Made by a program: the position numbers and the translations under genes
Shown here: positions 8,756-58,816 of the stretch, piece by piece
Position numbering within the stretch: position 1 is the first letter of the stretch
Layout: each line of letters begins with the position of its first letter
The notes under the pieces: generated by a model
The model's input: only the letters and a program-made list of their open reading frames with translations
Told to the model about the DNA's origin: nothing
Database searches by the model: none
Assembly (NCBI RefSeq): GCF_009295825.1
Contig: NZ_WHKF01000004.1
Location: 372,001 to 436,000 of the forward strand
DNA: 64,000 nucleotides
Direction: 5' to 3'
Source: Marinifilum sp. N1E240
Lineage (GTDB): Bacteria; Bacteroidota; Bacteroidia; Bacteroidales; Marinifilaceae

Positions 8756-9109
8756 ATGAATCAAGAAATAAACGAATATTTTATAACCAAATGGAAATCC
8801 CAGTTTAAGAAGGGACTTTTGGAATATATTATCTTGTTATTGTTAAGATCTAAACCGTGTTACGGTTATGAATTAATTAGCGAGATGAATCAATTTACAT
8901 CCCTCGAAATTGCTGAAGGAACCATTTATCCTCTTTTAAATAGATTGAAAAAGGAGAAACTGGTAACTTCGGAATGGGCAGAAATGGATACTGGTATTCC
9001 AAGAAAATACTATAAACTTACTGATGAGGGGATTTCGCATCTTGCAGTGATGCGAGAATATGTTGATTCTTTAAATCTATCTATTAAGAGAATAGAAGAA
9101 AGTGTTTAA
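8756..9109 (+). CDS. PadR-family transcriptional regulator
   Basis: A 117-residue winged-helix repressor. The core LLEYIILLLLRSKPCYGYELISEMN, EGTIYPLLNRLKKEKLV and the wing region with SEWAEMDTGIPRKYYKLT are all typical of PadR proteins; the last helix (residues 90-117) would dimerise. The effector cannot be predicted. The next gene, a glycerol kinase paralogue, starts 31 bases after the stop codon, so the two are probably co-transcribed and the regulator may control glycerol kinase 1. A perfect dyad upstream suggests autoregulation. Confidence 0.9.
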   Translation: MNQEINEYFITKWKSQFKKGLLEYIILLLLRSKPCYGYELISEMNQFTSLEIAEGTIYPLLNRLKKEKLVTSEWAEMDTGIPRKYYKLTDEGISHLAVMREYVDSLNLSIKRIEESV

Positions 9110-9140
9110 GAATTTTGAAAAATCTAATAATTACCAGGGA

Positions 9141-10637
9141 ATGAAAGATTATATTTTATCCTTAGATCAGGGAACTTCAATTTCAAAGGCAATTTTATTT
9201 AATAAAAAAGGTGAAATAGTTGCCCAAGTTCAAAAGGAGTATGAACAGTATTATCCTAAGCCTGGTTGGATCGAGCAGGATGCTAAGGAAATATGGTATT
9301 CACAAGCTTCAGTTGCTGAAGAGGTGCTTGCCAAAGCGGGTTTAACTGGTAAGGATATTGCAGGATTGGGAATCACAAATCAACGTGAAACTACAATTAT
9401 CTGGGATAGGGAAACAGGTGAACCAATTAATAATGCGATTGTTTGGCAGGACAGAAGAACTTCTCATATTTGTGACGATTTAAAAGAGAAGGGGTTCTCT
9501 AAAAAAATAAAAGAAAAAACTGGTTTAATTTTAGATGCTTTTTTCTCAGCAACTAAAATAAAATGGCTTCTTGATAATATTGAAGGAGTCAGAGAGAAAG
9601 CTGAACAAGGCAAATTGGCTTTTGGAACCGTTGATAGCTGGTTAATTTGGAAACTTACCAAAGGTGAAGTTCATGTTACAGATGTTTCCAATGCCAGTAG
9701 AACCATGCTCTATAATATTCATGATCTTTGTTGGGATGAAGAATTGTTAGAGTTAATGGACATTCCTAAATCCATTCTTCCAAAAGTTTGTTCTTCTAGT
9801 GAAATTTATGGATACACTAAAAGATCTATGTTTAGTGAAGAGATTCCGATTTCTGGAATTTGTGGCGATCAGCAAGCAGCACTATTTGGTCAGGCTTGTT
9901 TTGAAAAAGGTATGGTTAAAAATACCTACAATACTGGTTGCTTTATGTTGATGAATACGGGGACCGAACCAGTTGAGTCGAAAAATGATTTGATAACAAC
10001 AATAGCATGGGGAATTGGAGATAAGGTTACCTACGCTTTAGAAGGAAGTGTATTTATTGGAGGTGCTGTTGTTCAGTGGTTGCGCGATAGTTTAAATCTG
10101 ATTCATTCAATTGAAGAAATTGAATCGCTTGCTTTAACCGAAAAGGATAATGGAGGTGTGTATATCGTTCCTTCATTTACAGGCTTGGGAGCACCTTATT
10201 GGGATCAGTATGCCAGAGGAACCTTTTGGGGCTTAAATATGGGAACAAGTGCAGGTCATATTGCACGTGCCTCATTGGAATGTATTGCTCATCGTTCTTC
10301 AGATGTACTAAAAACAATGGAGGCTGATTCTGGTATTAAAGTAGAACAATTAAGAGGTGGAGGATTAATGGCCAATGATACTTTATTGCAGTATCAAGCT
10401 GATTTTCTGAATTTGCCTATTGTTAGACCTGAAATTAAGGAAATTACTGCTGTTGGAGCAGCTTATTTAGCCGGATTAGGTGTTGGTTTTTGGAATAGTG
10501 TTGAGGAGATTCAAGATCATTGGAAACTTGATAAGGAGTACGATGTTAAAATGGATAAGGAAATTGTTAAGCATCATAAGAAATATTGGGAAAAGGCTGT
10601 AAGTCGATCACAAAATTGGATAGATGCTGACGATTAA
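9141..10637 (+). CDS. glycerol kinase-like FGGY kinase (divergent paralogue)
   Basis: A 498-residue FGGY-family sugar kinase most like glycerol kinase, which makes sn-glycerol-3-phosphate from glycerol and ATP. I start it at the ATG at 9141; a longer frame would overlap padR. Compared with the second kinase at 17714 and with E. coli GlpK, most substrate residues are kept (R82, E83, D243, F268), but the active-site Tyr (Y135 in E. coli) is Phe134, the phosphate-loop GTTSSR is GTSISK, and the adenine-site motif LRVDGGA reads LRGGGLM with one residue lost. It is a full-length, intact gene, so it may be a kinase with altered substrate or kinetics. Symbol left empty because true glycerol specificity is uncertain. 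Confidence 0.88.
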   Translation: MKDYILSLDQGTSISKAILFNKKGEIVAQVQKEYEQYYPKPGWIEQDAKEIWYSQASVAEEVLAKAGLTGKDIAGLGITNQRETTIIWDRETGEPINNAIVWQDRRTSHICDDLKEKGFSKKIKEKTGLILDAFFSATKIKWLLDNIEGVREKAEQGKLAFGTVDSWLIWKLTKGEVHVTDVSNASRTMLYNIHDLCWDEELLELMDIPKSILPKVCSSSEIYGYTKRSMFSEEIPISGICGDQQAALFGQACFEKGMVKNTYNTGCFMLMNTGTEPVESKNDLITTIAWGIGDKVTYALEGSVFIGGAVVQWLRDSLNLIHSIEEIESLALTEKDNGGVYIVPSFTGLGAPYWDQYARGTFWGLNMGTSAGHIARASLECIAHRSSDVLKTMEADSGIKVEQLRGGGLMANDTLLQYQADFLNLPIVRPEIKEITAVGAAYLAGLGVGFWNSVEEIQDHWKLDKEYDVKMDKEIVKHHKKYWEKAVSRSQNWIDADD

Positions 10638-10768: not shown

Positions 10769-10784
10769 TGCACATTGTATTGCT
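10769..10784. promoter_or_regulatory. 16-bp motif, glpT upstream copy (over the -33 region)
   Basis: TGCACATTGTATTGCT overlaps the -33 position of the glpT-unit promoter. Its reverse complement AGCAATACAATGTGCA matches three other sites at 10891, 15450 and 15579. The repeated placement suggests an operator. Confidence 0.5.
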
Positions 10785-10796
10785 AAGTATTTTATT

Positions 10797-10805
10797 TAGA
10801 TTTGC
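10797..10805 (+). promoter_or_regulatory. -7 promoter box (TAGATTTGC) of the glpT unit
   Basis: TAGATTTGC fits TAnnTTTG, with TTG 22 bases upstream. The sequence CTAAGTA-TTTATTTAG just before it is almost identical to that of the glpD unit promoter at 15478. Confidence 0.7.
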
Positions 10806-10936: not shown

Positions 10937-11083
10937 ATGAAAGATGTCAAACTTGATGAACAGCTAGAGGATCGTTTATACTTTTTTTTCTCGAAAATTC
11001 TTGATTTACAAAAGCAAGTAAAATTAAAAGAAAAGAATGTTGAGTATAGCAGTATTTGGGAGTTTTGGGATGGAGAATTATAA
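10937..11083 (+). CDS. microprotein A (48 aa), upstream of glpT
   Basis: A 48-codon frame with ATG and TAA, 62 bases before glpT. The product begins MKDVKLDEQLEDRLYFFF and ends SIWEFWDGEL. It is clearly related to microprotein B at 15622, which has the same place before glpD: both share an acidic N-terminal helix, RLYxFF near residues 13-18, a variable middle, and SIW-[FY]W-x-x-EL at the extreme C-terminus. Conservation of protein over DNA in the middle and identical position argue that it is translated. No membrane helix or signal peptide is visible; the FFFSKILDL stretch could be an amphipathic helix. Function unknown: it could bind GlpT/GlpD or sense a metabolite. I do not recognise a family. 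Confidence 0.65.
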   Translation: MKDVKLDEQLEDRLYFFFSKILDLQKQVKLKEKNVEYSSIWEFWDGEL

Positions 11084-15449: not shown

Positions 15450-15465
15450 AGCACCTTGCATTACT
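15450..15465. promoter_or_regulatory. 16-bp motif, glpD upstream copy
   Basis: AGCACCTTGCATTACT at the -33 region of the glpD-unit promoter; the same placement as the glpT copy at 10769. Confidence 0.5.
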
Positions 15466-15477
15466 AAGTAATTTATT

Positions 15478-15485
15478 TAGCTTTG
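15478..15485 (+). promoter_or_regulatory. -7 promoter box (TAGCTTTG) of the glpD unit
   Basis: TAGCTTTG fits TAnnTTTG, with TTG 22 bases upstream, the same spacing as in the glpT unit. The flanking bases are nearly identical in the two units. Confidence 0.7.
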
Positions 15486-15621: not shown

Positions 15622-15765
15622 ATGGAAGACATGAAATTTGATATGCAAATGGAAAATCGCCTTTATTCTTTTTTCTTAGACCTTTTGGCCGGACAAAATG
15701 ATAAGCTTGTTCAAGATGATGAACAAAATGGAAGTATCTGGAAATACTGGGAAGAGGAATTATAA
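15622..15765 (+). CDS. microprotein B (47 aa), upstream of glpD
   Basis: A 47-codon frame with ATG and TAA, 39 bases before glpD. It starts MEDMKFDMQMENRLYSFF and ends SIWKYWEEEL, a paralogue of microprotein A with the same motif order and spacing at both ends and a different Asp/Gln-rich middle. It follows the leader terminator, so it is made only when transcription reads through and thus with GlpD. It is not a classical leader peptide, which would lie before the terminator. Function unknown; the acidic, Trp-containing end may be a binding motif. Confidence 0.65.
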   Translation: MEDMKFDMQMENRLYSFFLDLLAGQNDKLVQDDEQNGSIWKYWEEEL

Positions 15766-15804: not shown

Positions 15805-17352
15805 ATGTATAGAGAGGTTGAAAGTGTAAAACAGAAATGGGATGTGATCATTGTTGGTGGTGGAGCGTCAGGCTTAGGAGCAGCTATTGAGTCGGTAACT
15901 CGTGGATACAAAACACTACTTCTGGAGCAGGATGATTTTGCTAAAGGAACTTCGAGTAGAAGTACCAAGCTTGTTCATGGTGGCGTTCGTTATCTTGCTC
16001 AGGGAAATATATCATTGGTTTTGGAAGCTTTAAGAGAAAGAGGTTTGTTAAAGCAAAATGCACCTCACTTGGTAAAAGATCAATCATTTATTATTCCTAA
16101 TTATACATGGTGGGGAACACCTTACTATACTTTAGGTTTAACAATGTACGACCTAATGGCTGGGAAATTAGGTTACGGGCGATCATTGCCTTTCTCTAAA
16201 AAAAGAACGCTAAAGCATATTCCTACACTAAAAAGCGAAAATCTTTGTGGTGGAGTTGTTTATCACGATGGACAATTTGATGACTCCAGATTGGCAATTA
16301 ATATGTGTCAAACTTTTGTAGAAAATGGTGGAGTTGCTATCAACTACATGAAGGTTGAAGGATTTGAAAAGAAGAATGGAAAAATTTCAGCAGTGAAAGC
16401 TACTGATTTGGAGAGTGGAACAAAATATACGATAGAAGGTAAAGTAGTTTTGAATGCAACGGGAGTTTTTGTTGATAAAGTTATCAAAATGGACGAACCT
16501 AAAGCAAAAGATATCGTAAAGGTCAGTCAAGGTGTACATTTGGTTTTAGATAAGGAATTTGTGCCGGGAGATTATGCAGTGATGATTCCTAAAACCAGTG
16601 ACGGTCGTGTTCTTTTTGCTGTGCCATGGCATAACAAAGTTGTTGTAGGAACCACCGATGTACACAAAGATTGTGCAGAACTAGAACCTAGAGCGTTGGA
16701 AGAGGAAGTTGATTTTATTTTAGAGACTGCGGGTAGATTCTTATCAAAACCTCCTAAAAGATCAGATGTAAGAAGCGTATTTGCTGGTTTAAGACCATTG
16801 GCAGCACCTAGTGGCGATGGTAAAAAAACGAAGGAAATATCTCGAGGACACAAAATTGTTGTTTCCGAATCGGGAATGGTAACCTTAACAGGTGGTAAAT
16901 GGACTACTTACCGACAAATGGCTGAAGATGTAATGAACACTGTTGCCAAAACAGCAGGATTACAAGAGAAAAAGTCAAAAACAAGAAATCTAAAAATTCA
17001 TGGATATAAGCTAAATCCAGATTTAAATAATCCAATGTATTTCTATGGCTCCGATGAAGAGAAGATTTTAGATTTAGCTAAAAAAGAAGATGGTTTGGAT
17101 GAGTATTTAAGCTCAAAGCTAAAAGTGTTGAATGCACAGGTAGTTTGGGGGGCTAGGTATGAAATGGCCAGAACCATTGAAGATATATTATCGAGAAGAA
17201 CACGTTCATTACTTCTTGATGCAAAAGAAAGTATAAGAATGGCTCCTAAGGTAGCAGAATTAATGGCTAAGGAATTAGGATACGATAAACAATGGGAAGA
17301 GAACCAAGTAAAAGATTACAAAAACTTGGCATCTCGATACATTTTGATATAA
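15805..17352 (+). CDS. glpD: aerobic-type glycerol-3-phosphate dehydrogenase, FAD-dependent
   Basis: A 515-residue flavoenzyme that oxidises sn-glycerol-3-phosphate to dihydroxyacetone phosphate at the membrane and passes electrons to quinone. The FAD Rossmann motif VIIVGGGASGLGAA is at residues 14-27, and the family block TKLVHGGVRYLAQGNISLVLEALRERGLL follows. The length matches GlpD rather than the shorter GlpA. Later conserved pieces include TGGKWTTYRQMAEDVM and the C-terminal helical domain. It is the last step joining the block to glycolysis. It seems to be transcribed with microprotein B under the attenuator leader. Confidence 0.95.
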   Translation: MYREVESVKQKWDVIIVGGGASGLGAAIESVTRGYKTLLLEQDDFAKGTSSRSTKLVHGGVRYLAQGNISLVLEALRERGLLKQNAPHLVKDQSFIIPNYTWWGTPYYTLGLTMYDLMAGKLGYGRSLPFSKKRTLKHIPTLKSENLCGGVVYHDGQFDDSRLAINMCQTFVENGGVAINYMKVEGFEKKNGKISAVKATDLESGTKYTIEGKVVLNATGVFVDKVIKMDEPKAKDIVKVSQGVHLVLDKEFVPGDYAVMIPKTSDGRVLFAVPWHNKVVVGTTDVHKDCAELEPRALEEEVDFILETAGRFLSKPPKRSDVRSVFAGLRPLAAPSGDGKKTKEISRGHKIVVSESGMVTLTGGKWTTYRQMAEDVMNTVAKTAGLQEKKSKTRNLKIHGYKLNPDLNNPMYFYGSDEEKILDLAKKEDGLDEYLSSKLKVLNAQVVWGARYEMARTIEDILSRRTRSLLLDAKESIRMAPKVAELMAKELGYDKQWEENQVKDYKNLASRYILI

Positions 17353-17457
17353 GAGATTATTTGTAGGACGAATTGAGTAAAGCATTTATTAAAGGTAGTT
17401 CTTAGTCTGTTATTTATAACTACTGATTTTATTAATTGTTACAATATTATTAATCAA

Positions 17458-17487
17458 TTTGTTAGTTTTGGCACGAAATTACTTTGC
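17458..17487 (+). promoter_or_regulatory. likely promoter of glpK
   Basis: TTTG at 17458-17461 and TACTTTGC at 17480-17487 (one base short of TAnnTTTG), 21 bases apart. The site predicts a 5' leader of about 220 bases. Near it, GGCACGAAATTACT loosely resembles the 16-bp motif with a shorter spacer. Confidence 0.4.
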
Positions 17488-17511
17488 ACAATCGTCCTAC
17501 ACTTTACTCTG

Positions 17512-17660
17512 GAAGGTTTGGTTATCACATGGATTACCACCTTCAAATTAACTAATCAAAAAATTCCATTTTGGAATTGGTGAAATTTAATCTTTCGGGA
17601 TTAAAAAAATTTATCTCGCTTTTGCAATCGTTTACAATTGGAAAATTTTAAGCAAAAGTG
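17512..17660 (+). ncRNA. structured 5' leader of glpK, four hairpins
   Basis: Four successive helices: GAAGGT-TT-GGT 17512-17522 with ACCACCTTC 17536-17544; AATTCCA/TGGAATT 17562-17578; TTTAATC/GATTAAA 17586-17605; and CGCTTTTGC 17617-17625 with GCAAAAGTG 17652-17660. None is followed by a T run, so they are not simple terminators. The last ends 53 bases before the glpK ATG. I do not recognise a known riboswitch class; it could be a protein- or metabolite-sensing leader. Structures were drawn by eye, without energy or covariation support. Confidence 0.45.
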
Positions 17661-17713
17661 AATTCAGAAGGAGAGTATTTTAATTAACACAATAACCCAA
17701 ATTAATTAGAAGT

Positions 17714-19213
17714 ATGGAAGACAAGTTTATTTTAGCTTTAGACCAGGGAACTACAAGTTCCAGAGCAATCGTTTTCAATAAGAAGGGCGAGATGATAAGC
17801 ACGGCACAGAAAGAATTTACACAAATTTTTCCTCAGCCGGGTTGGGTAGAACATGATGCAAACGAAATTTGGTTTACGCAAGCTGGAGTTGCTGCAGAAG
17901 CAATTACACATGCAGGAGCTAATGGAAAGAGTATTGCGGGGATTGGTATCACTAATCAGAGAGAGACAACTGTTGTATGGGATCGTGAAACTAGTGAGCC
18001 AATTTATAATGCAATCGTTTGGCAAGATCGTCGTACCTCAAAATATTGTGATGAACTGAGAGCTCAAGGACATGCTGATATGATTCAGGATAAAACAGGT
18101 TTAATTATCGACTCGTATTTCTCTGGAACAAAAGTGAAGTGGATTCTTGACAATGTTGAAGGAGCTCGTGAAAAAGCTGAGGCAGGAAAATTAGCATTTG
18201 GTACTATCGATAGCTGGTTAATCTGGAAATTAACTCAAGGAAAGGTGCATGTAACTGATGTTACAAATGCAAGTAGAACTTTACTTTATAACATCAAAAC
18301 CTTAGAGTGGGATACAGAAATGTTAGAATTACTTGACATTCCAAAAAGTATGCTACCAGAGGTTAAATCTTCTTCAGAAGTATACGGACATACCGTAACT
18401 ACTTTATTCGCACACGAGGTACCTATCGCAGGTATTGCAGGTGATCAGCAGGCAGCAACTTTCGGTCAAATGTGTATTAAGCCAGGATCGGTTAAGAATA
18501 CTTATGGTACAGGATGTTTCATGCTTTGTAATACAGGTAATAAGCCAGTAAAGTCGAACAACAATTTGTTAACAACTATTGGTTGGCAAATTAATGGCGA
18601 AACTACTTACTGTCTTGAAGGTAGTATTTTCATGGGAGGAGCTATTGTACAATGGTTACGTGATGGTTTAGGAATTATTAAATCGTCTCCTGAGGTTGAA
18701 GAACTGGCCGGTTCGGTTGAAGATAACGGAGGTGTATTCTTGGTTCCTGCACTTACAGGTTTAGGAGCTCCGCATTGGGATCAGTACGCTAGAGGTACAA
18801 TTGTAGGGTTGACAAGAGGTGCAACTTCAGCACATATCGCAAGAGCTGCATTGGAAGGTATTGCATTCCAAACTATGGATGTATTGAAAGCAATGGAAGC
18901 AGACGCAGGAATTAAGATCAACGAACTTCGTGTTGATGGTGGAGCTGCAATTAACAACCTATTAATGCAATTCCAATCGGATGTATTGGATGCTCCGGTT
19001 TACAGACCAAAAACTCTTGAAACAACAGCATTGGGTGCTGCATATTTAGCAGGTTTGGCAGTTGGATATTGGGATAGTATCGATGACATTAAGAGTCAAT
19101 GGGCAATGGATCGTAAGTTTGAGCCAGCAATGCCTAAAGAAAAATCTGAGAAATTGATTAATGGTTGGAACAAAGCCCTTGGTCGTTCAAAGGATTGGGA
19201 TACTGAAGCTTAA
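17714..19213 (+). CDS. glpK: glycerol kinase (canonical)
   Basis: A 499-residue FGGY kinase with the complete glycerol kinase signature set: [12 protein letters not shown] phosphate loop, TNQRETT (substrate Arg-Glu), [11 protein letters not shown] (substrate Tyr), [10 protein letters not shown] (catalytic Asp), [10 protein letters not shown] (substrate Phe), [20 protein letters not shown] and [11 protein letters not shown] (adenine site). It makes glycerol-3-phosphate in the cytoplasm. It leads an operon with glpF and an outer-membrane barrel, and follows a long structured leader. The Gram-positive HPr phosphorylation loop (YHFYG) is absent. The divergent paralogue at 9141 differs at several of the positions listed. 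Confidence 0.97.
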
Positions 19214-19241: not shown

Positions 19242-19296
19242 AATGCCGGAATATGGAGAAGAAGGAATGGATGAAGACAGAATTCCGGCATTCTTT
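19242..19296 (+). promoter_or_regulatory. intergenic hairpin between glpK and glpF
   Basis: Perfect 11-bp stem AATGCCGGAAT 19242-19252 with ATTCCGGCATT 19282-19292, and a 29-base purine-rich loop, followed by CTTTT. It may stop part of the transcription or protect or process the mRNA, setting the GlpK:GlpF ratio. Confidence 0.55.
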
Positions 19297-19328: not shown

Positions 19329-20063
19329 ATGAGTGAATTTGTTGCAGAATTTATAGGAACCATGTTACTGATATTATTAGGTAACGGAGTAGTTGCAAAT
19401 GTTGTATTGAATAAAACAAAAGGAAACAATAGCGGTTGGATTGTAATCACAATGGGATGGGGATTAGCCGTATTTACAGGTGTTGCAGTTGCAGGTCCTG
19501 TTTCAGGAGCTCACATTAACCCTGCCGTAACTATCGGATTGGCATTAGCAGGAATGTTTGCCTGGTCAAAAGTAGGTCTTTTTATTGCAGCTCAAATGTT
19601 AGGAGCAGCTATGGGTGCATTCCTTGTTTGGTTAATGTATCGCGATCATTTTAATTCTACTGAAGATGGTGGAGCTAAATTGGCTTGTTTCTCAACAGGT
19701 CCTGCTATCAGAAACATTGGAAGTAACGCAATTAGTGAAGTCATTGGTGCTTTTGTATTGATGTTCGTTATCTTTTACTTGGCAGGTCCTTCTCTTGAAG
19801 CTGCTGGAATGGAAGGTGCTAAGATTGGATTAGGAACTTTAGGTGCTTTACCTGTTGCTTTATTAGTTGTAGCTATTGGTCTTTCGTTAGGCGGAACTAC
19901 CGGATATGCAATTAACCCCGCAAGAGACTTGGGGCCTCGTATCATGCATGCTATTTTACCTATGCAAAATAAAGGTACAAGCGACTGGGCGTATTCATTG
20001 GTGCCTATCGTTGCCCCAATTGTAGGAACTGCCATTGCAGCATTCTTATTTATGTATCTATAA
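19329..20063 (+). CDS. glpF: glycerol facilitator, aquaglyceroporin GlpF
   Basis: A 244-residue major intrinsic protein with six membrane helices that lets glycerol diffuse through the inner membrane. The two NPA boxes are at residues 64-66 (AHINPAVTIG) and 196-198 (AINPARDLGPR). The Asp after the second box (NPARD) is the mark of glycerol facilitators rather than water-only AqpZ channels. It follows glpK in the same operon, so glycerol is trapped by phosphorylation as it enters. It starts at ATGAGTGAATTTG. Confidence 0.95.
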   Translation: MSEFVAEFIGTMLLILLGNGVVANVVLNKTKGNNSGWIVITMGWGLAVFTGVAVAGPVSGAHINPAVTIGLALAGMFAWSKVGLFIAAQMLGAAMGAFLVWLMYRDHFNSTEDGGAKLACFSTGPAIRNIGSNAISEVIGAFVLMFVIFYLAGPSLEAAGMEGAKIGLGTLGALPVALLVVAIGLSLGGTTGYAINPARDLGPRIMHAILPMQNKGTSDWAYSLVPIVAPIVGTAIAAFLFMYL

Positions 20064-51027: not shown

Positions 51028-51092
51028 TTATTCTATACCTTCATTTTGCTACCTGATATTTTAAATCATCTAATTATTTCCAAAATATTGCA

Positions 51093-51100
51093 TAGATTTG
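51093..51100 (+). promoter_or_regulatory. -7 promoter box (TAGATTTG) of riboswitch 1
   Basis: TAGATTTG just before the start of the first cobalamin riboswitch. Confidence 0.65.
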
Positions 51101-51103
51101 CAA

Positions 51104-51301
51104 CAATTGGGTTTCCTCTTGAGGGAATGAAAAGGGAATCTGGTGTAAAACCAGAACTGTCCCCGCAGCCGTAATCTTTCTTATGGATTAATGAAAGTAA
51201 GTCGGAATACCTGCCTGATAAAATAAACTGTTTCGTAACTTCGGGGAACTGAGTAACGAAGGTATAATTTTGTGAATTGTATTTTCTAGTCAACCTTCCC
51301 C
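51104..51301 (+). ncRNA. cobalamin riboswitch 1 with expression platform
   Basis: The conserved core GAAAAGGGAATCTGGTG, CCCCGCAGCCGTAA and the B12 box AAGTCGGAATACCTGCC (51199-51215) are present. Beyond it, GGGGAA at 51243-51248 can pair with TTCCCC at 51296-51301. That competes with a hairpin CCCACAAT/ATTGTGG right before the ATG at 51321, suggesting control of translation. It governs the BtuF-BtuC-BtuD-BtuF operon. Confidence 0.9.
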
Positions 51302-51320
51302 ACAATTATTGTGGAAGAAA

Positions 51321-52505
51321 ATGAATTTAGTAAGATCTTTAAGTGTTGGAATTCTATTTTTCAGCCTTCTTTGGTGTTCTGCCTGTCAATCGGGAGATTC
51401 CAAACAGAAGAAAGAAGTGCTTTCTCAGGAATCAACTGCTGATTCCTCCTTTTATCATCAATCTGATATTAAGTATGCCAAAGGCTTTCAAATTAAAATC
51501 CTGCAAAAAGGAGTTAAAGAATTAATTGTTTGGGATCCGTGGAATCCAGGCAAAGTTTTTCAAAAATACTACCTGAAGAATCGTGGAGAAAAAATTCAAG
51601 TCGATTTACCTAAGGATGGTCTTTTAGTTGAAGTTCCGGTAAAAAGTATTGCAGCACTTTCGAGTACTCAGATAGGAATTTTAAAATTTCTTGGTGTTGA
51701 GGATAAAATTGTAGCAGTCTCCTTAAAGGATAGAATATACGATGAAGATATACATCGAAAGGTAAAGGCAGGAAATATTCAAGCTGTTGGTCATGCTGAA
51801 ACTTTAAATTTTGAGAAAATTCTTGAGATTGATCCTGATTTGGTGATGGTTGCTGGATTTATGAAGGTTACTGAGAGAGAAAGCAAATTGATGCATGCAG
51901 GTTTACCGGTGGCATACAATATTGAATGGATGGAATCTTCTCCTTTGGCTCGTGCCGAATGGGCTAAGTTTATTGCTGCCTTTTTTAATAAAGAAGCTGA
52001 AGCTGAAAAACATTTTAACGAGATTGATTCAAGATATAATCAGCTAAAATCATTAGTAAAAACAGTTGCGAATGAACCTAGTATTCTATCTGGATACAAC
52101 TTTAAAGGTGTTTGGTATATGCCTGGAGGACAATCGTATCTGGCTCAGTTTTTACGCGATGGGAAAGCTGATTACTGCTGGTTTTCTGATAGCTCAAGCG
52201 GAAGTATTCCTTTAAGTTTCGAAGTGGTATTCGACAAGCAAAGTGAAGCGGATATTTGGTTTGGACCTGGGCAGTGTAGAACTATTGAAGATTTGAATGG
52301 ATTAGATGAGAGATACTCATTGTTTAAATCTTATAAAACCAAAGAAGTTTACTGTTACACCAAACGCATGAAAGAAAGTGGAGCTAATGATTGGTACGAA
52401 TCAGGAGTAATGCAGCCAGATGTTGTTTTCAAAGATGTAATAAAGATATTGCATCCGGAAATTCTCCCTGATTATGAATTGCACTTTTATCAAAAACTGA
52501 AATAG
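51321..52505 (+). CDS. cobalamin ABC transporter substrate-binding lipoprotein (BtuF-like), copy 1
   Basis: A 394-residue periplasmic lipoprotein (signal ends SAC) of the TroA/FecB-type binding-protein fold. I use the ATG at 51321; a TTG 12 bases upstream would be inside the hairpin. Recognisable parts are VEVPVKSIAALSSTQIGILKFLGVEDKIVAV and LEIDPDLVMVAG. It should capture B12 delivered by the TonB receptor and hand it to the permease. It has a paralogue at 54622 after the ATPase gene. Confidence 0.85.
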   Translation: MNLVRSLSVGILFFSLLWCSACQSGDSKQKKEVLSQESTADSSFYHQSDIKYAKGFQIKILQKGVKELIVWDPWNPGKVFQKYYLKNRGEKIQVDLPKDGLLVEVPVKSIAALSSTQIGILKFLGVEDKIVAVSLKDRIYDEDIHRKVKAGNIQAVGHAETLNFEKILEIDPDLVMVAGFMKVTERESKLMHAGLPVAYNIEWMESSPLARAEWAKFIAAFFNKEAEAEKHFNEIDSRYNQLKSLVKTVANEPSILSGYNFKGVWYMPGGQSYLAQFLRDGKADYCWFSDSSSGSIPLSFEVVFDKQSEADIWFGPGQCRTIEDLNGLDERYSLFKSYKTKEVYCYTKRMKESGANDWYESGVMQPDVVFKDVIKILHPEILPDYELHFYQKLK

Positions 52506-52512
52506 TAGAAGA

Positions 52513-53568
52513 ATGATAAAGAGAAAAAGTGGACAACTTGTTTCCATCTTATTTGGAGCTCTGATTGTGATTATAGTAGGAGTTTTTCTTCTGGATTTGA
52601 TTTTCGGATCAGTTAGCATTCCATTTAGAAAGGTGTTTACCATACTTTTTGGTGGCGATGTTAAATCTTCCTGGAATTATATTGTTTTGAATTTTAGATT
52701 GCCTAAAGCACTTACTGCAATTTTTGTAGGAGCTGGTTTGTCGGTCACAGGATTAATGATGCAAACCTTATTTAGAAATCCTCTTGCCGGACCATTTGTA
52801 TTAGGAATAAGTTCAGGAGCTAGTCTTGGAGTTGCCCTTATGGTAATGGCTTCGGCTATTGTTCCAGCATTTTTTGGAACAATTTCGGCACTTTTGGGGA
52901 GTTGGGCTTTAGTGGTTGCAGCAGTGGCTGGTGCCTCATTGGTGTTTCTATTAGTTGCTTTAGCTTCAATTCGCATATCTGATAGTGTTTCTCTTTTAAT
53001 TATAGGAATCATGTTTGGAAGTATCACTGGTGCAGTGGTAAATATTCTTCAGTATTTTAGTGATCCTGAGCAAATTCAAAGTTTTATCGTGTGGACATTT
53101 GGGTCATTAGCTGGTGTTACTTGGAACGAAATGCAGGTAATGGGACCGATTGTATTTATCGGTATGATAATGGCATTTTTGTTAATTAAACCTATGGATG
53201 CCTTATTATTAGGAGAGAATTATGCAAGAGGTGTGGGAATATCAGTTAATAGAATAAGAATAGCAGTAATTATTAGCACCGCTTTAATTGCAGGAACCTT
53301 AACAGCATTTACAGGTCCAATTGCTTTTGTAGGTGTTGCTGTACCTCATATTGCTCGCGCCATATTCAGAACAGCAAGTCATAAGGTATTAATGCCAGCT
53401 GTAGTTTTAATTGGTGCAGCCATCATGTTGTCTTGTGATATTATTTCACAAATTCCAGGGAATCAAAATACATTGCCTATCAATTCTGTAACTGCATTGT
53501 TTGGAGGACCGGTTGTTATTTGGGTAATCATGAGGAGTAGAAATGTTAAGGCATCTTTTGCAGGATAG
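52513..53568 (+). CDS. btuC: cobalamin ABC permease (BtuC/FecCD family)
   Basis: A 351-residue permease of the FecCD/BtuC family with about ten membrane helices. LPKALTAIFVGAGLSVTGLMMQTLFRNPLAGPFVLGISSGASLG and the cytoplasmic GPIAFVGVAVPHIARAIF loop are diagnostic; the latter contacts the ATPase. It starts eight bases after the binding-protein gene. Cobalamin rather than siderophore transport is inferred from the riboswitch. Confidence 0.9.
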   Translation: MIKRKSGQLVSILFGALIVIIVGVFLLDLIFGSVSIPFRKVFTILFGGDVKSSWNYIVLNFRLPKALTAIFVGAGLSVTGLMMQTLFRNPLAGPFVLGISSGASLGVALMVMASAIVPAFFGTISALLGSWALVVAAVAGASLVFLLVALASIRISDSVSLLIIGIMFGSITGAVVNILQYFSDPEQIQSFIVWTFGSLAGVTWNEMQVMGPIVFIGMIMAFLLIKPMDALLLGENYARGVGISVNRIRIAVIISTALIAGTLTAFTGPIAFVGVAVPHIARAIFRTASHKVLMPAVVLIGAAIMLSCDIISQIPGNQNTLPINSVTALFGGPVVIWVIMRSRNVKASFAG

Positions 53569-53576
53569 AGGGATTT

Positions 53577-54608
53577 ATGAAAGAAAGAAAAGAAAATCAA
53601 GATATACTGGTCACACAAGATCTTTCCATTGGGTACAAGCAAGGGAAAAAAGAGACCTTGTGCTTACTCTCTAATATTGATTTAACCATTAGAAGAGGTG
53701 AAATGGTTTGTCTGTTGGGACCCAATGGAGCGGGGAAGTCTACTTTAATGAGAACCATTGCAGGAATTCAACCTCCGCTTTCGGGTTGCACTTTAGTTGA
53801 AGGAATTCCAATAAAAGATAGAAATTTTAAAGAGATTGCTCAACTGTTGAGTATTGTCTTAACTGAGAGAATCAACGTTGGAAATCTTACTGTTTATCAC
53901 ATTGTTTCTTTAGGGCGTCATCCTTATACCTCCTGGATGGGGAAATTGTCCCAAGAAGATAATGATAAGATAAAATGGGCTTTGGAACAGGTTGGACTGT
54001 TACACTATGCAAATCATTTTATCAATCAGCTGAGTGATGGAGAAAGACAGAGAGTAATGATTGCAAAAGCTTTGGCTCAGGATACGCCTTTAATCATGCT
54101 AGATGAACCAACAGCACATCTCGACTTACCAAATAGAGTTGAAATAATGCGCTTGTTACATCGCCTGGCAAGAGAGACCAATAAGGCTATTCTTTTATCT
54201 ACTCATGAATTGGATTTGGCTTTACAGGCTGCGGATGTAATATGGTTAATGGCAAGAAATCAGCCGGTTAAAATAGGTGCTCCTGAAGATTTAGTTTTAA
54301 ATGGAAGTATTGAAGACACCTTTCATAATAAATCATTTAATTTCGATCGAAAAACAGGGAATTTTATTATGAATTATCAGAAAAAACAAAGAATCCAGCT
54401 TTTGGGTAATGATGTAATGGGTTTTTGGACACAACGGGCTTTATCACGAGAAGGTTACCAGGTGAGTTGCGAAAAAGTTGGTGATTGTTGTGTTAATTTA
54501 TTGGAAGATTCTATGGAGTGGGAAATAGAACAAAATGGCTCTACAATAAAATGTACCAGCATTCAGGAATTATTATTACACCTACGCAGTAACTTGACTA
54601 AATCTTAA
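53577..54608 (+). CDS. btuD: cobalamin ABC ATPase (BtuD-like) with C-terminal extension
   Basis: A 343-residue ABC ATPase that powers B12 import. Walker A is LLGPNGAGKST (47-57), the signature LSDGERQRVMIAKAL, Walker B LIMLDEPT, and the switch His STHELDLAL. The family usually ends near 260 residues; here about 80 extra residues (IQLLGNDVMGFWTQRALSREG onward) form a small domain that I do not recognise. It starts eight bases after btuC. Confidence 0.9.
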   Translation: MKERKENQDILVTQDLSIGYKQGKKETLCLLSNIDLTIRRGEMVCLLGPNGAGKSTLMRTIAGIQPPLSGCTLVEGIPIKDRNFKEIAQLLSIVLTERINVGNLTVYHIVSLGRHPYTSWMGKLSQEDNDKIKWALEQVGLLHYANHFINQLSDGERQRVMIAKALAQDTPLIMLDEPTAHLDLPNRVEIMRLLHRLARETNKAILLSTHELDLALQAADVIWLMARNQPVKIGAPEDLVLNGSIEDTFHNKSFNFDRKTGNFIMNYQKKQRIQLLGNDVMGFWTQRALSREGYQVSCEKVGDCCVNLLEDSMEWEIEQNGSTIKCTSIQELLLHLRSNLTKS

Positions 54609-54621
54609 CTCTATCTAAATC

Positions 54622-55800
54622 ATGCAGAGAATACTACTGGTGCTTTTGGTACTTATACTAATGGGCTGTTGGTCTAATGACAGCAATGAGCGAAGCAGAA
54701 TTGATATAGTTGAAGATCTAACTGACTTTGCTTTTACAAGTAAGGTAAATCATGCCATTGGTTTTAGTATTGAGATGAAAAATGGCTATAAGGAAATAAA
54801 GGTATTTAATCCTTGGAAGAATGATGAGATCTTGAGGAAATATGCGCTTGTACCAAGAGGAAAAGTTGTACCTGCTGAAGTGAGTAAGAGACATGTTGTA
54901 GTTAATGTTCCAGTAAAAACTGTAGCTCTATTTTCGAATACTCATGTGGGACCAATTGTAAAGTTGGGACTAGAAGATAAGGTTGTGGGAATGACAAGAG
55001 CCAGAAAAGTTTTTAATGAAAAACTATTTGCTAAAGTAGAAAGAGGAAAGATTCTAAATTTAGGAGGAGCTCACAATAAAAATATTGATATAGAAACCAT
55101 TGTAGATTTGAATCCTGATTTGATCATACTTTCGGCTTATAATGAGGTTAAATCTGGTGAAGCACAATTGGAAGAAAACGGATTAAAGTTGTCTTATTCA
55201 ATTAATTGGATGGAATCTACACCATTGGCAAGAGCCGAGTGGTTGAAATTTACTGCAGCTTTTTTCAATAAAGAGAGTTTAGCTGATTCAATGTTTACTG
55301 AAATTGAAAATAACTATAACAAGCTTAAATCAAGAGTTGCAAAAGTGAAGCAAAAACCAAATGTATTGCTTGGGTGGAGTTATAAAGGAACATGGTTTAT
55401 GCCGGGTGGACGAAATTATATGGTTAGCTATTTAAGGGATGCTGGAGCCAATTATTTTCTTTATGATGATGAATCAAGAGGAAATATTCCAATGAGCGTA
55501 GAATCTGTTTTAGAATCTTGTAATAATACCGACGTTTGGATATATCCTGGCGTTTGTAAAAGTTTGAATGATATTGAAAATGGAGGTGAAATTTTCACTC
55601 AATTTAAGCCATTTAAACAAAAGGAAATATATAATATATACAAAAGAACCAATGCTACAGGAGGTAGTGATTGGTGGGAAAGAGGAAGTGTAAATCCTGA
55701 TGTAGCCTTAAAAGATTTTATTAAGATTTTGCATCCCGAATTGTTACCTAATGATACCACTTACTTCTTTAGTAAGCTTCACTTTTTGAATAAAAAATAA
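54622..55800 (+). CDS. cobalamin-binding lipoprotein (BtuF-like), copy 2
   Basis: A 392-residue lipoprotein (signal LLVLILMGCW) clearly paralogous to the gene at 51321: VNVPVKTVALFSNTHVGPIVKLGLEDKVVG and SINWMESTPLARAEWLKFTAAFFNKE match VEVPVKSIAALSSTQ... and IEWMESSPLARAEWAKF in the first copy. It is the last gene of the operon, 13 bases after btuD. Two binding proteins served by one permease may bind different corrinoids. Confidence 0.85.
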   Translation: MQRILLVLLVLILMGCWSNDSNERSRIDIVEDLTDFAFTSKVNHAIGFSIEMKNGYKEIKVFNPWKNDEILRKYALVPRGKVVPAEVSKRHVVVNVPVKTVALFSNTHVGPIVKLGLEDKVVGMTRARKVFNEKLFAKVERGKILNLGGAHNKNIDIETIVDLNPDLIILSAYNEVKSGEAQLEENGLKLSYSINWMESTPLARAEWLKFTAAFFNKESLADSMFTEIENNYNKLKSRVAKVKQKPNVLLGWSYKGTWFMPGGRNYMVSYLRDAGANYFLYDDESRGNIPMSVESVLESCNNTDVWIYPGVCKSLNDIENGGEIFTQFKPFKQKEIYNIYKRTNATGGSDWWERGSVNPDVALKDFIKILHPELLPNDTTYFFSKLHFLNKK

Positions 55801-55881
55801 AATTCTCTTCTTAGGTTCAGATTGTTAATATGTAATTGAGAAAAAAGCATGCAATTTTTTATTGTATAATTAAAAAATGTA

Positions 55882-55890
55882 TACATTTGC
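55882..55890 (+). promoter_or_regulatory. -7 promoter box (TACATTTGC) of riboswitch 2
   Basis: TACATTTGC right before the second riboswitch. Confidence 0.7.
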
Positions 55891-55892
55891 GA

Positions 55893-56085
55893 CGCATTTG
55901 GTTTTTCACAACCATTATTCGATTGTGAAAATGAAAAGGGAATCCGGTGAAAATCCGGAACTATACCCGTAGCTGTAAGTTCTAAAAAAAGCTTTTTGAA
56001 TGACCTATTGCCACTGTTTCGATTAATTGAAATGGGAAGGCCTCAAAAAGTAGAACAAGTCAGAAGACCTGCCTTTGCGAATATT
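55893..56085 (+). ncRNA. cobalamin riboswitch 2
   Basis: GAAAAGGGAATCCGGTG, CCCGTAGCTGTAAG and the B12 box AAGTCAGAAGACCTGCC (56057-56073). It controls the first BtuB-like receptor. A following hairpin TTGCTT...GAGCAAG is shared with riboswitch 3. Confidence 0.93.
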
Positions 56086-56252
56086 TTAAGTCATTGCTTT
56101 CGGGAAAAAGAGCAAGTGAACGAAAACTTTTCACAAAGAGTATTGGGATTGATTTGCCATAACTGGTCCTTAATTCTTCATGTTAGATTTTTCTTTTCGC
56201 TCCCTGATTGCATGCATTAGTTAAACTTATTTTCATTTTATTCTTAAAAGAC

Positions 56253-58352
56253 ATGAAAAGAACATTTTTAACAGCTTTTGCATTGCTATCACTATTGAAC
56301 ACTGCAGTTAAAGCTGATGAAATTCCAAATCCGACAAACGACACTACGGCGGTACGACATTTAAATTTATCAGAAGTGAAGATCAACGCTTCGCGTGTAA
56401 GTGCAAAAATGAAGGATTTGCCACAAAAGGTTGAGGTAATTACTGCCAGACGTATTGAATCTACTCCAGCCAATGATATTGGAGAGTTGTTGAAAAAGAG
56501 TACAGGTTTGGATATTATACAGTATCCAGGAATAAAATCGGCTGTAGGAATGCGTGGTTTTAGTCCATCAACAAGTAACAAATACAATGTAATTTTGGTT
56601 AACGGAAAGCCAGCTGGAACAGAGAATATTGCGACTCTGAATATGGCTAATGTTGAAAGAGTAGAGATTTTAAAAGGACCATTCTCGTCACTTTATGGTT
56701 CTGATGCTATGGCTGGTGTTATTAATATCATTACCAAAAAATCTGATGGTGAAATAGGTGGTAATATTTCTTTTGCCTACGGAAGTTTCGAGACAACTGA
56801 TGTAATTGCAAATGTTGGAGGTGACTTATCAGAGAAATTTTCATTTGATTTTGCCTACAGCAGACATCAGCAAAATAAAGACTATAAAATAGGTGATAAT
56901 AATTTCACTTATACTTCAAAATTAGAGAAATCTATTATTTCGGAAGATACTTATGGTGAAAGAATGGTGAATACGAAATTCACTAAGACAAATTACAATT
57001 TAAGACTTGGTTATGAGATTAATGATGATTGGACTCTTAATTTGAATACAGAGTATTTTCTTGCTGATGATGTGGAAACTCCCGGATCGTTCTGGCATGT
57101 AAATGGCATGGATCGAAAAGATTTGGAAAGATATAGGGTAGGGTTTGATCTTACAGGTGTGATCAATCAACATCATCTTTCCTTTGCTCCCTATTACAGT
57201 AAGGAGGATAATGATTATTTCGAATTGAATTCGGAAGAGAAATACTACAACAGTAGCAATAGTGTTTTAAAGGTGTATGGATTTCAAGCGCAAGATAAAA
57301 TTGTGATTGACAAACATACACTGGTAATAGGATTGGATAGCAAAACCAATAAGTATGAAAATTTACGTTGGGAGGCTGATGGAGCTATGGATGCACCATA
57401 TAACCCGGACAATTACGATAGAAACTATGGCGCATTTGTTCAAATGAACATGAAATTGCTGAATGATGCATTAAATATTTCGCTAGGTGGTAGATATGAT
57501 TACATCAAATTTCAGATTGAAGCCAATGAATTGATTAGTGCAAAGAAATCAGATGAGAGCTATTCTACCTTCAATCCAAATCTAGGTTTAAAATATAAAA
57601 TTGTTAAGAATCTAAGTGTTCACTCTAGTTTTGGAACAGCTTTTCTTGCACCAAGTGCATATCAGGTAGCAGGATCATACAGTGGTTATTACAATTATGA
57701 AGGGAATTCAGAATTGGATCCTGAAAAATCAAGAACTGTTGATTTTGGTTTCACCTATGATAATTTTAAGAAGGGAATTAAATTTGATGTCACCTATTTC
57801 GATACTCATCATGATGATATGATCGTTTCTGAATGGAAGGATCAGGATAATAATATCAAAACTTATAATAACGCCAACGAATCGGACATGAATGGTTTGG
57901 AAATAGAAGCTGCCTACGATTTTGGAGCTCTTTCAGATTATAACTATTCTTTGAGATTGTATGCGAATTATACTCATCTATTCGATACAAAAATGAAACT
58001 GGAAAAAGATCCTACTGAGTATGATCTAAGATATGTTCGTGAAAAATCTGGAAACTTTGGAGTTGAGTTTGATAATTTGAAAGGATTTTACACCCGTTTG
58101 AATGCAAGATATAGTGGACATCGTTACGAAGATAACTGGTATACCTGGTATTCAGTGCGTCCAACTGTTACAGATGGTGTGTTAAAACACCCTGACTTTA
58201 TGACTTTTGATTACTCTGCAAATTACACAATAAAGGATAAATATACTTTAGGTTTAAGCATTGCTAATTTATTAGATGAAAATTATACCGAAAAAGATGG
58301 TTATAATATGCCGGGTAGAGCAGTAACAATGAAATTCAATTATAAGTTCTAA
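56253..58352 (+). CDS. btuB: TonB-dependent receptor BtuB-like, copy 1
   Basis: A 699-residue outer-membrane receptor for cobalamin. From the ATG at 56253 it has a signal peptide (LNTAVKADE), a TonB-box-like LSEVKINASR, and a plug domain (VERVEILKGPFSSLYGSDAMAGVINIITKK), then a 22-strand barrel ending MKFNYKF. Cobalamin specificity rests on the riboswitch upstream. It is about 40-50 percent alike, by eye, to the next receptor at 58817. TonB energises it. Confidence 0.9.
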   Translation: MKRTFLTAFALLSLLNTAVKADEIPNPTNDTTAVRHLNLSEVKINASRVSAKMKDLPQKVEVITARRIESTPANDIGELLKKSTGLDIIQYPGIKSAVGMRGFSPSTSNKYNVILVNGKPAGTENIATLNMANVERVEILKGPFSSLYGSDAMAGVINIITKKSDGEIGGNISFAYGSFETTDVIANVGGDLSEKFSFDFAYSRHQQNKDYKIGDNNFTYTSKLEKSIISEDTYGERMVNTKFTKTNYNLRLGYEINDDWTLNLNTEYFLADDVETPGSFWHVNGMDRKDLERYRVGFDLTGVINQHHLSFAPYYSKEDNDYFELNSEEKYYNSSNSVLKVYGFQAQDKIVIDKHTLVIGLDSKTNKYENLRWEADGAMDAPYNPDNYDRNYGAFVQMNMKLLNDALNISLGGRYDYIKFQIEANELISAKKSDESYSTFNPNLGLKYKIVKNLSVHSSFGTAFLAPSAYQVAGSYSGYYNYEGNSELDPEKSRTVDFGFTYDNFKKGIKFDVTYFDTHHDDMIVSEWKDQDNNIKTYNNANESDMNGLEIEAAYDFGALSDYNYSLRLYANYTHLFDTKMKLEKDPTEYDLRYVREKSGNFGVEFDNLKGFYTRLNARYSGHRYEDNWYTWYSVRPTVTDGVLKHPDFMTFDYSANYTIKDKYTLGLSIANLLDENYTEKDGYNMPGRAVTMKFNYKF

Positions 58353-58380
58353 TACTTACAATTTTTAGTTTTTATGTCAA

Positions 58381-58410
58381 TTCGATACTTTTTAAAAGTA
58401 TCGAATTTTT
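58381..58410 (+). terminator. intrinsic terminator after receptor 1
   Basis: TTCGATACTTT/AAAGTATCGAA and a T run. Confidence 0.85.
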
Positions 58411-58487
58411 AGTTTATTATATTAATAGTTGAAATACAGTGTGTTGTAAAAATAAGGGATTCATGAGTCTGATTTTGTATTTTTTTA

Positions 58488-58496
58488 TACATTTGC
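58488..58496 (+). promoter_or_regulatory. -7 promoter box (TACATTTGC) of riboswitch 3
   Basis: TACATTTGC, the same box as before riboswitch 2. Confidence 0.7.
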
Positions 58497-58690
58497 AGTG
58501 CAATTGGTTCTCGTGAATCTGATTTTTGTCAGATGGAGATGAAAAGGGAATCCGGTGAAAGTCCGGAGCTGTTCCCGTAGCTGTAAGCTCATAAATAAGC
58601 TTTTTCACTACAATGCCACTGTTCGAATTAACTTAGAATGGGAAGGCGGAAAAAGTTGAGTAAGTCAGAAGACCTGCCAGTGCAAACTTA
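58497..58690 (+). ncRNA. cobalamin riboswitch 3
   Basis: GAAAAGGGAATCCGGTG, TCCCGTAGCTGTAAG and the B12 box AAGTCAGAAGACCTGCC (58662-58678). The core and the flank CATTGCTTTCGGG resemble riboswitch 2, supporting duplication. Confidence 0.93.
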
Positions 58691-58816
58691 TCGTCATTGC
58701 TTTCGGGTATTGAAGCAAGGGACAAAAGAAAATGGACAATATCTTGTCTAATCAATTCTTTTATCTGTACCTGAATGTAATGCATTAATAATATTATTTA
58801 TTACTGTATTTTAGTT

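Follow-up and report, generated by a model that had tools for sequence, protein, structure and literature searches.

The stretch analysed here (64,000 nucleotides of Marinifilum sp. N1E240, contig NZ_WHKF01000004.1, positions 372,001 to 436,000; hereafter the window) carries glpD, glpK and glpF (19329–20063) as consecutive genes, all on the + strand. The gap between glpD and glpK contains a computed structure in which a long helix (P1) encloses a second helix (P2) and an A/U-rich core, followed by hairpin h1, an A/U-rich terminator-like hairpin or a T run in most relatives, and a putative operator (Table 1). From its sequence, we infer a function for this element in glpK expression.

Table 1. 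Features of the glpD–glpK locus, in window coordinates
Feature	Position	Strand	Basis or remark
glpD promoter, TTG-N19-TAGCTTTG, overlapping palindromic CTAAGTAATTTATTTAG	15456..15485	+	9/9 match in window; 10/10 relatives
glpD (glycerol-3-phosphate dehydrogenase/oxidase)	15805..17352	+	Pfam DAO and DAO_C; stop codon 17350–17352
P1 5′ strand	17363..17382	+	~10 nt past glpD stop; covariation, 0/5000 whole-arm permutations
P2 5′ strand, GGTAGTT	17394..17400	+	pairs with 17418–17424
P2 3′ strand, AACTACT	17418..17424	+	P1+P2 consensus fold on hand-built structural alignment
A/U-rich conserved core, 3′ end invariant TTTTGGCAC	17435..17474	+	identity to Marinifilum; family-restricted pattern
P1 3′ strand, CTTTGCACAATCGTCCTAC	17482..17500	+	covariation; inverted repeat
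Hairpin h1	17512..17544	+	counterparts in 17/19 regions
Hairpin h2	17562..17578	+	Marinifilum-type counterparts AAATC/GGATTT, CAGGTC/GACTTG, ATCAAGT/ACTTGAT
Hairpin h3	17580..17615	+	matches terminator-like hairpin of relatives
Hairpin h4	17617..17660	+	predicted in window only; absent from relatives' folds
Putative LacI/cre-like operator, TGCAATCGTTTACA	17623..17636	.	only exact TGNAANCGNTTNCA match in window
glpK-proximal conserved block, AACACAATAACCC	17686..17698	+	just before glpK start in both large clades
glpK (glycerol kinase)	17714..19213	+	Pfam FGGY_N and FGGY_C

DNA and protein searches showed that the order glpD–intergenic RNA–glpK is kept in Marinifilum, Labilibaculum and close genera, and the named records bearing the element are Marinifilum, Labilibaculum and one Marinifilaceae MAG. 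In the relatives that carry it, the element adjoins glpD, and wherever both flanking genes are visible it lies between glpD and glpK. A model of the element recovered one copy per genome in 17 of 59 family genomes, every copy in the glpD–glpK gap. A pattern spanning the core matched 12 stretches among 84,980 species genomes, all from Marinifilaceae and all at glpD and/or glpK, with no match before any other gene. Weak DNA matches to the core in three genomes (L014, L015 and L016) fell in coding regions or the rplJ–rplL gap, and the sole order-level model match outside the family (L041) lay antisense within a coding gene and lacked P1; both were set aside as chance.

Helix P1 and the enclosed core

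The original prediction placed a structured glpK leader at 17512–17660 and called for covariation across relatives. Strong covariation was found, but in an alignment of the intergenic regions the most constrained part lies upstream of that stretch. The best-supported structure (17363–17500) begins about 150 bases before it, reaches back to the glpD stop and encloses P2 and the A/U-rich core. Here an inverted repeat (17362–17371/17492–17501) extends into the 19–20 bp helix P1, which encloses ~100 nt. P1 starts ~2–14 nt past the glpD stop in every relative, and its arms differ by clade (GTAGGACGA..., GTAGAACGA..., AAGTGGATTTGCG...) with pairing retained.

Covariation of P1 was scored on a gap-free two-arm alignment of 14 distinct sequences, the arms being joined by an added GGCAC spacer. 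Paired cells amounted to 81.4%, vs. 34–46% in slid controls, doubly changed cells to 42 vs. 19.5, and the covariation score was 0.409 vs. 0.203, with 0 of 500 shuffles as good, although these shuffles ignore shared ancestry and, with effectively three clades, the changes may trace to few events. Two of the five covariation measures (pairs with a double change and extra pair types) were not above shuffles. When whole 3′ arms were swapped among sequences, the observed pairing was reached in 0 of 5000 permutations, and arms paired at 59% across clades vs. 82% within one sequence. GU outnumbered A–C combinations by 13 to 9, a difference too small to pick the strand. The element folded better than its shuffles in all 19 sequences (z from –1.1 to –5.6, most below –2.8; –3.6 in the window). 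P1 is thus quite probably a functional RNA helix, and by sequence comparison an intergenic structured RNA whose main stem is kept through matching changes on both sides is well supported. Since the stem retains its shape through such two-sided changes, the element is probably a real control element.

A third clade (L045, L047 and L048) has its own shorter P1-like helix right after the glpD stop, with a different core; the helix is followed by a strong hairpin h1, a T run and the operator, in the same order. A switch-like alternative pairing of GAGTAAAG (17375–17382) with CTTTACTC (17502–17509), perfect in the window, is absent in relatives and was rejected as chance.

P2 pairing is kept in Labilibaculum-like relatives by strands of the AGCAGTAC/GTACTGCT and TTAGTAC/GTACTAG types. 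From P2 to the core, the window is identical to Marinifilum (L003, L017) over 81 of 81 nt. Identity to the Labilibaculum-like clade is 42–45%, with the block AATAWTATWAATCRRTTWGT...TTTTGGCAC kept there, and the predicted fold of the core varies between clades. RNAalifold gave a weak –5.96 kcal/mol on a plain MAFFT alignment because MAFFT misaligns P2 and part of P1; the RNAalifold-type consensus reached –46.8 on a hand-built structural alignment that was itself fitted to the structure. No start-codon reading frame in the element is common to the relatives.

The invariance of TTTTGGCAC throughout the two main clades, and that of the –7-box-like TAGTTTTG in the core of the Marinifilum-type clade, would also fit a block conserved as DNA. 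On this account the block would serve glpK as a promoter and binding site, in which either TAGTTTTG acts as a –7 box or TGGCAC acts as the –24 box of sigma-54, and the repeat would be a coincidence. We consider this unlikely: it does not explain why 20 bp of helix stay paired as their sequence changes, no TTG lies at the usual distance from TAGTTTTG, and the motif stands before no other gene. A sigma-54 promoter calls for TGGCAC and TTGC with 5 nt between them, and in the alignments TGGCAC is invariant whereas TTGC is absent at that spacing. The –12 position reads TACT, TGCC, TAAC, TGAC, AATT or TTCT, with only TAGC coming near TTGC.

Downstream hairpins and the putative operator

The four successive hairpins originally described at 17512–17660 were recovered by folding (MFE –32.5 kcal/mol, z –3.22, 0 of 200 shuffles as good; z –2.44 for the wider region around them). 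Of these, h1 has counterparts in most relatives, and h2 and h3 have counterparts in Marinifilum. Those of h1 differ in sequence (GGAAGATAGGTG/CACCTATCTTCC, GGAAGGTTGG/CCAACCTTCC, TGAAGTG/CACTTCA), and genome L006 has no clear h1. Hairpin h4 overlaps the predicted palindromic operator, and its pairing is not kept in relatives. Identical or near-identical operator sites occur in the relatives' glpD–glpK intergenic regions, and the genome encodes five LacI-family regulators. Judged from these sequences, h4 is better read as DNA, a putative operator, than as an RNA hairpin.

That no T run follows the hairpins is correct for all four in the window, but the h3 counterpart in Marinifilum, TTTAATCCGAAGGATTAAA, is followed by AATTTTT(T), i.e. 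5–6 T. Most other relatives have 8–9 T ahead of the operator, vs. a short, broken (degenerate) run in the window. With home-made terminator scores, neighbouring gene ends reached about 12–18 and most glpD–glpK regions only 3–10, and a scan of L003 and L007 with a standard tool returned no sense-strand terminator. A search for an expression platform, either a terminator or start-site sequestration that excludes the aptamer fold, turned up a terminator-like hairpin and T run in relatives, degenerate in the window, and no recognisable conserved alternative pairing. The case for transcription attenuation is weakest in the window because the downstream T run is degenerate there.

Promoters and read-through from glpD

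Promoters were sought with the Bacteroidota sigma-A consensus (TTG...TAnnTTTG; –7 box following PMC9723704), requiring both boxes, a spacing of 17–21 nt and a conserved place, under one scoring rule everywhere. In the window, perfect matches (TTG-N19/20-TAnnTTTG) precede both glpT and glpD; among relatives, 10 of 10 have one before glpD. The string CTAAGTANTTTATTTAG has just two genome occurrences, upstream of the same two genes. The palindrome CTAAGTAnTTTATTTAG is common to the glpT and glpD leader promoters (10775–10804 and 15456–15485), occurs exactly twice in the genome and is kept before glpD in relatives, which suggests a candidate site of a glp-specific regulator.

Upstream of glpK, none of the 22 regions (including one duplicate and one not adjoining glpD) has a perfect 9/9 promoter. 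Matches of 8/9 occur there at chance level (about 0.9 expected per intergenic region) and are not conserved in position, except for TAGTTTTG within the core of the Marinifilum-type clade. The promoter that the proposed glpK leader of ~220 nt would need, TTG-N17-TTACTTTG (17459–17486), is an 8/9 match at chance level and is not conserved. An independent glpK leader starting near 17492, with its four hairpins forming a riboswitch or other RNA control, is very improbable. Its hairpins do fold with a z of –3.2, and relatives have hairpins corresponding to h1 and h2, but besides the imperfect promoter the proposed start would halve P1, and h4 is not conserved.

Read-through from glpD is indirectly favoured by the absence of a perfect sigma-A promoter at glpK, by the weak terminators after glpD and by L051, from another genus of the family, in which glpD and glpK are 3 nt apart and thus operonic. 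The genomic context indicates that the glpD promoter probably drives a glpD–glpK transcript and that glpK is probably mainly read through from glpD.

The same intergenic features could instead close off the glpD mRNA at its 3′ end, where they would stabilise or process it and terminate transcription weakly, and glpK would start from a promoter of its own close to the LacI-like operator; RNA sensing and control of glpK would then play no part. That P1 begins so near the glpD stop codon in all relatives fits this account, as do the T run just ahead of the operator in most relatives and a TTG-N17-TAATTTTA before glpK in some Marinifilum species (L003–L005). However, that promoter is an 8/9 match and is absent in the Labilibaculum-like clade, and the full P2-to-core identity with Marinifilum exceeds the needs of a simple 3′-end hairpin. 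We regard a pure 3′-end role as possible but doubtful. REP-type and other 3′-end stabilising or processing hairpins likewise form a stable stem right after a stop codon between operon genes; the element differs from them in its long conserved internal core and its single copy per genome.

A candidate cis-acting RNA for glpK

The preferred reading, to which we give about even weight on the sequence data, is a Marinifilaceae-specific cis-acting RNA in the glpD–glpK transcript that tunes glpK expression. Transcription from the glpD promoter would read through into glpK, and probably glpF too, and the RNA would set the share of read-through transcription or of mRNA that reaches glpK. This would most likely happen by co-transcriptional attenuation, at the hairpins or T run that follow. 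P1 folding may respond to a metabolite, to an RNA-binding protein or to a ribosome completing glpD, whose footprint would extend over the base of the helix. Glycerol kinase could in this way be adjusted separately from glpD; with the element directly behind the glpD stop, one promoter may suffice to set two enzymes of the pathway differently.

The element resembles orphan riboswitch candidates and intergenic cis-regulatory motifs in having a P1 over a conserved, poorly paired core beside a metabolic gene, and terminator-like hairpins downstream (here in relatives). Unlike these, it sits within an operon and not in a 5′ leader, occurs at one locus in one bacterial family, and is without an Rfam match or assigned ligand. 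The earlier statement that no known riboswitch is recognised agrees with Rfam, in which no family matched the element at gathering or permissive thresholds; a mir-722 match on the other strand (E 2.8) was attributed to chance. That the glpD–glpK transcript contains a riboswitch sensing glycerol, glycerol-3-phosphate or a similar metabolite is quite unlikely; if it did, glycerol kinase would be tuned by the metabolite pool on which glpD draws. To our knowledge, no natural riboswitch for ligands of the glycerol or glycerol-3-phosphate type has been described.

GlpP antitermination of Bacillus subtilis glpD is likewise a hairpin RNA control of a glycerol catabolic gene. The element differs in preceding glpK, not glpD, and the genome has no GlpP (PF04309) above the cut-off of 27 bits, the best partial match scoring 22. 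Should the element control glpK, its defined helix and core would mark a new family of cis-regulatory RNA; in the literature, no description of RNA control of glycerol use in these marine bacteria was found.

The glpT and glpD microprotein leaders of the window resemble the element in placing a hairpin and T run ahead of a glp gene. The glpD–glpK element has neither their conserved reading frame nor their perfect sigma-A promoter. RNA-level control of glpK distinct from these leaders, as first suggested, is plausible from the sequence, but it would reside in the glpD–glpK gap and not in an independent leader. The microprotein frames (48 residues at 10937–11083, before glpT; 47 residues at 15622–15765, before glpD) both end in SIW-x-(F/Y)W-x-x-EL, and a hairpin with a T run precedes each. 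The frame in the glpD leader is kept in most relatives (L070–L076); L079 has ATGTAA at the frame start.

Other features were observed at or near the locus. The glpK–glpF gap of the window (19242–19292) holds a hairpin, AATGCCGGAAT...ATTCCGGCATT, followed by CTTTT. In Marinifilum fragile JCM 15579, glpK (L066:301–1796) is in two frames with a break near residue 40, possibly a sequencing error. At 8756–10637, a PadR-type regulator lies beside a second FGGY kinase that resembles glycerol kinase and shares 61% identity with glpK, and three cobalamin riboswitches occur within 8 kb at 51092–58695.
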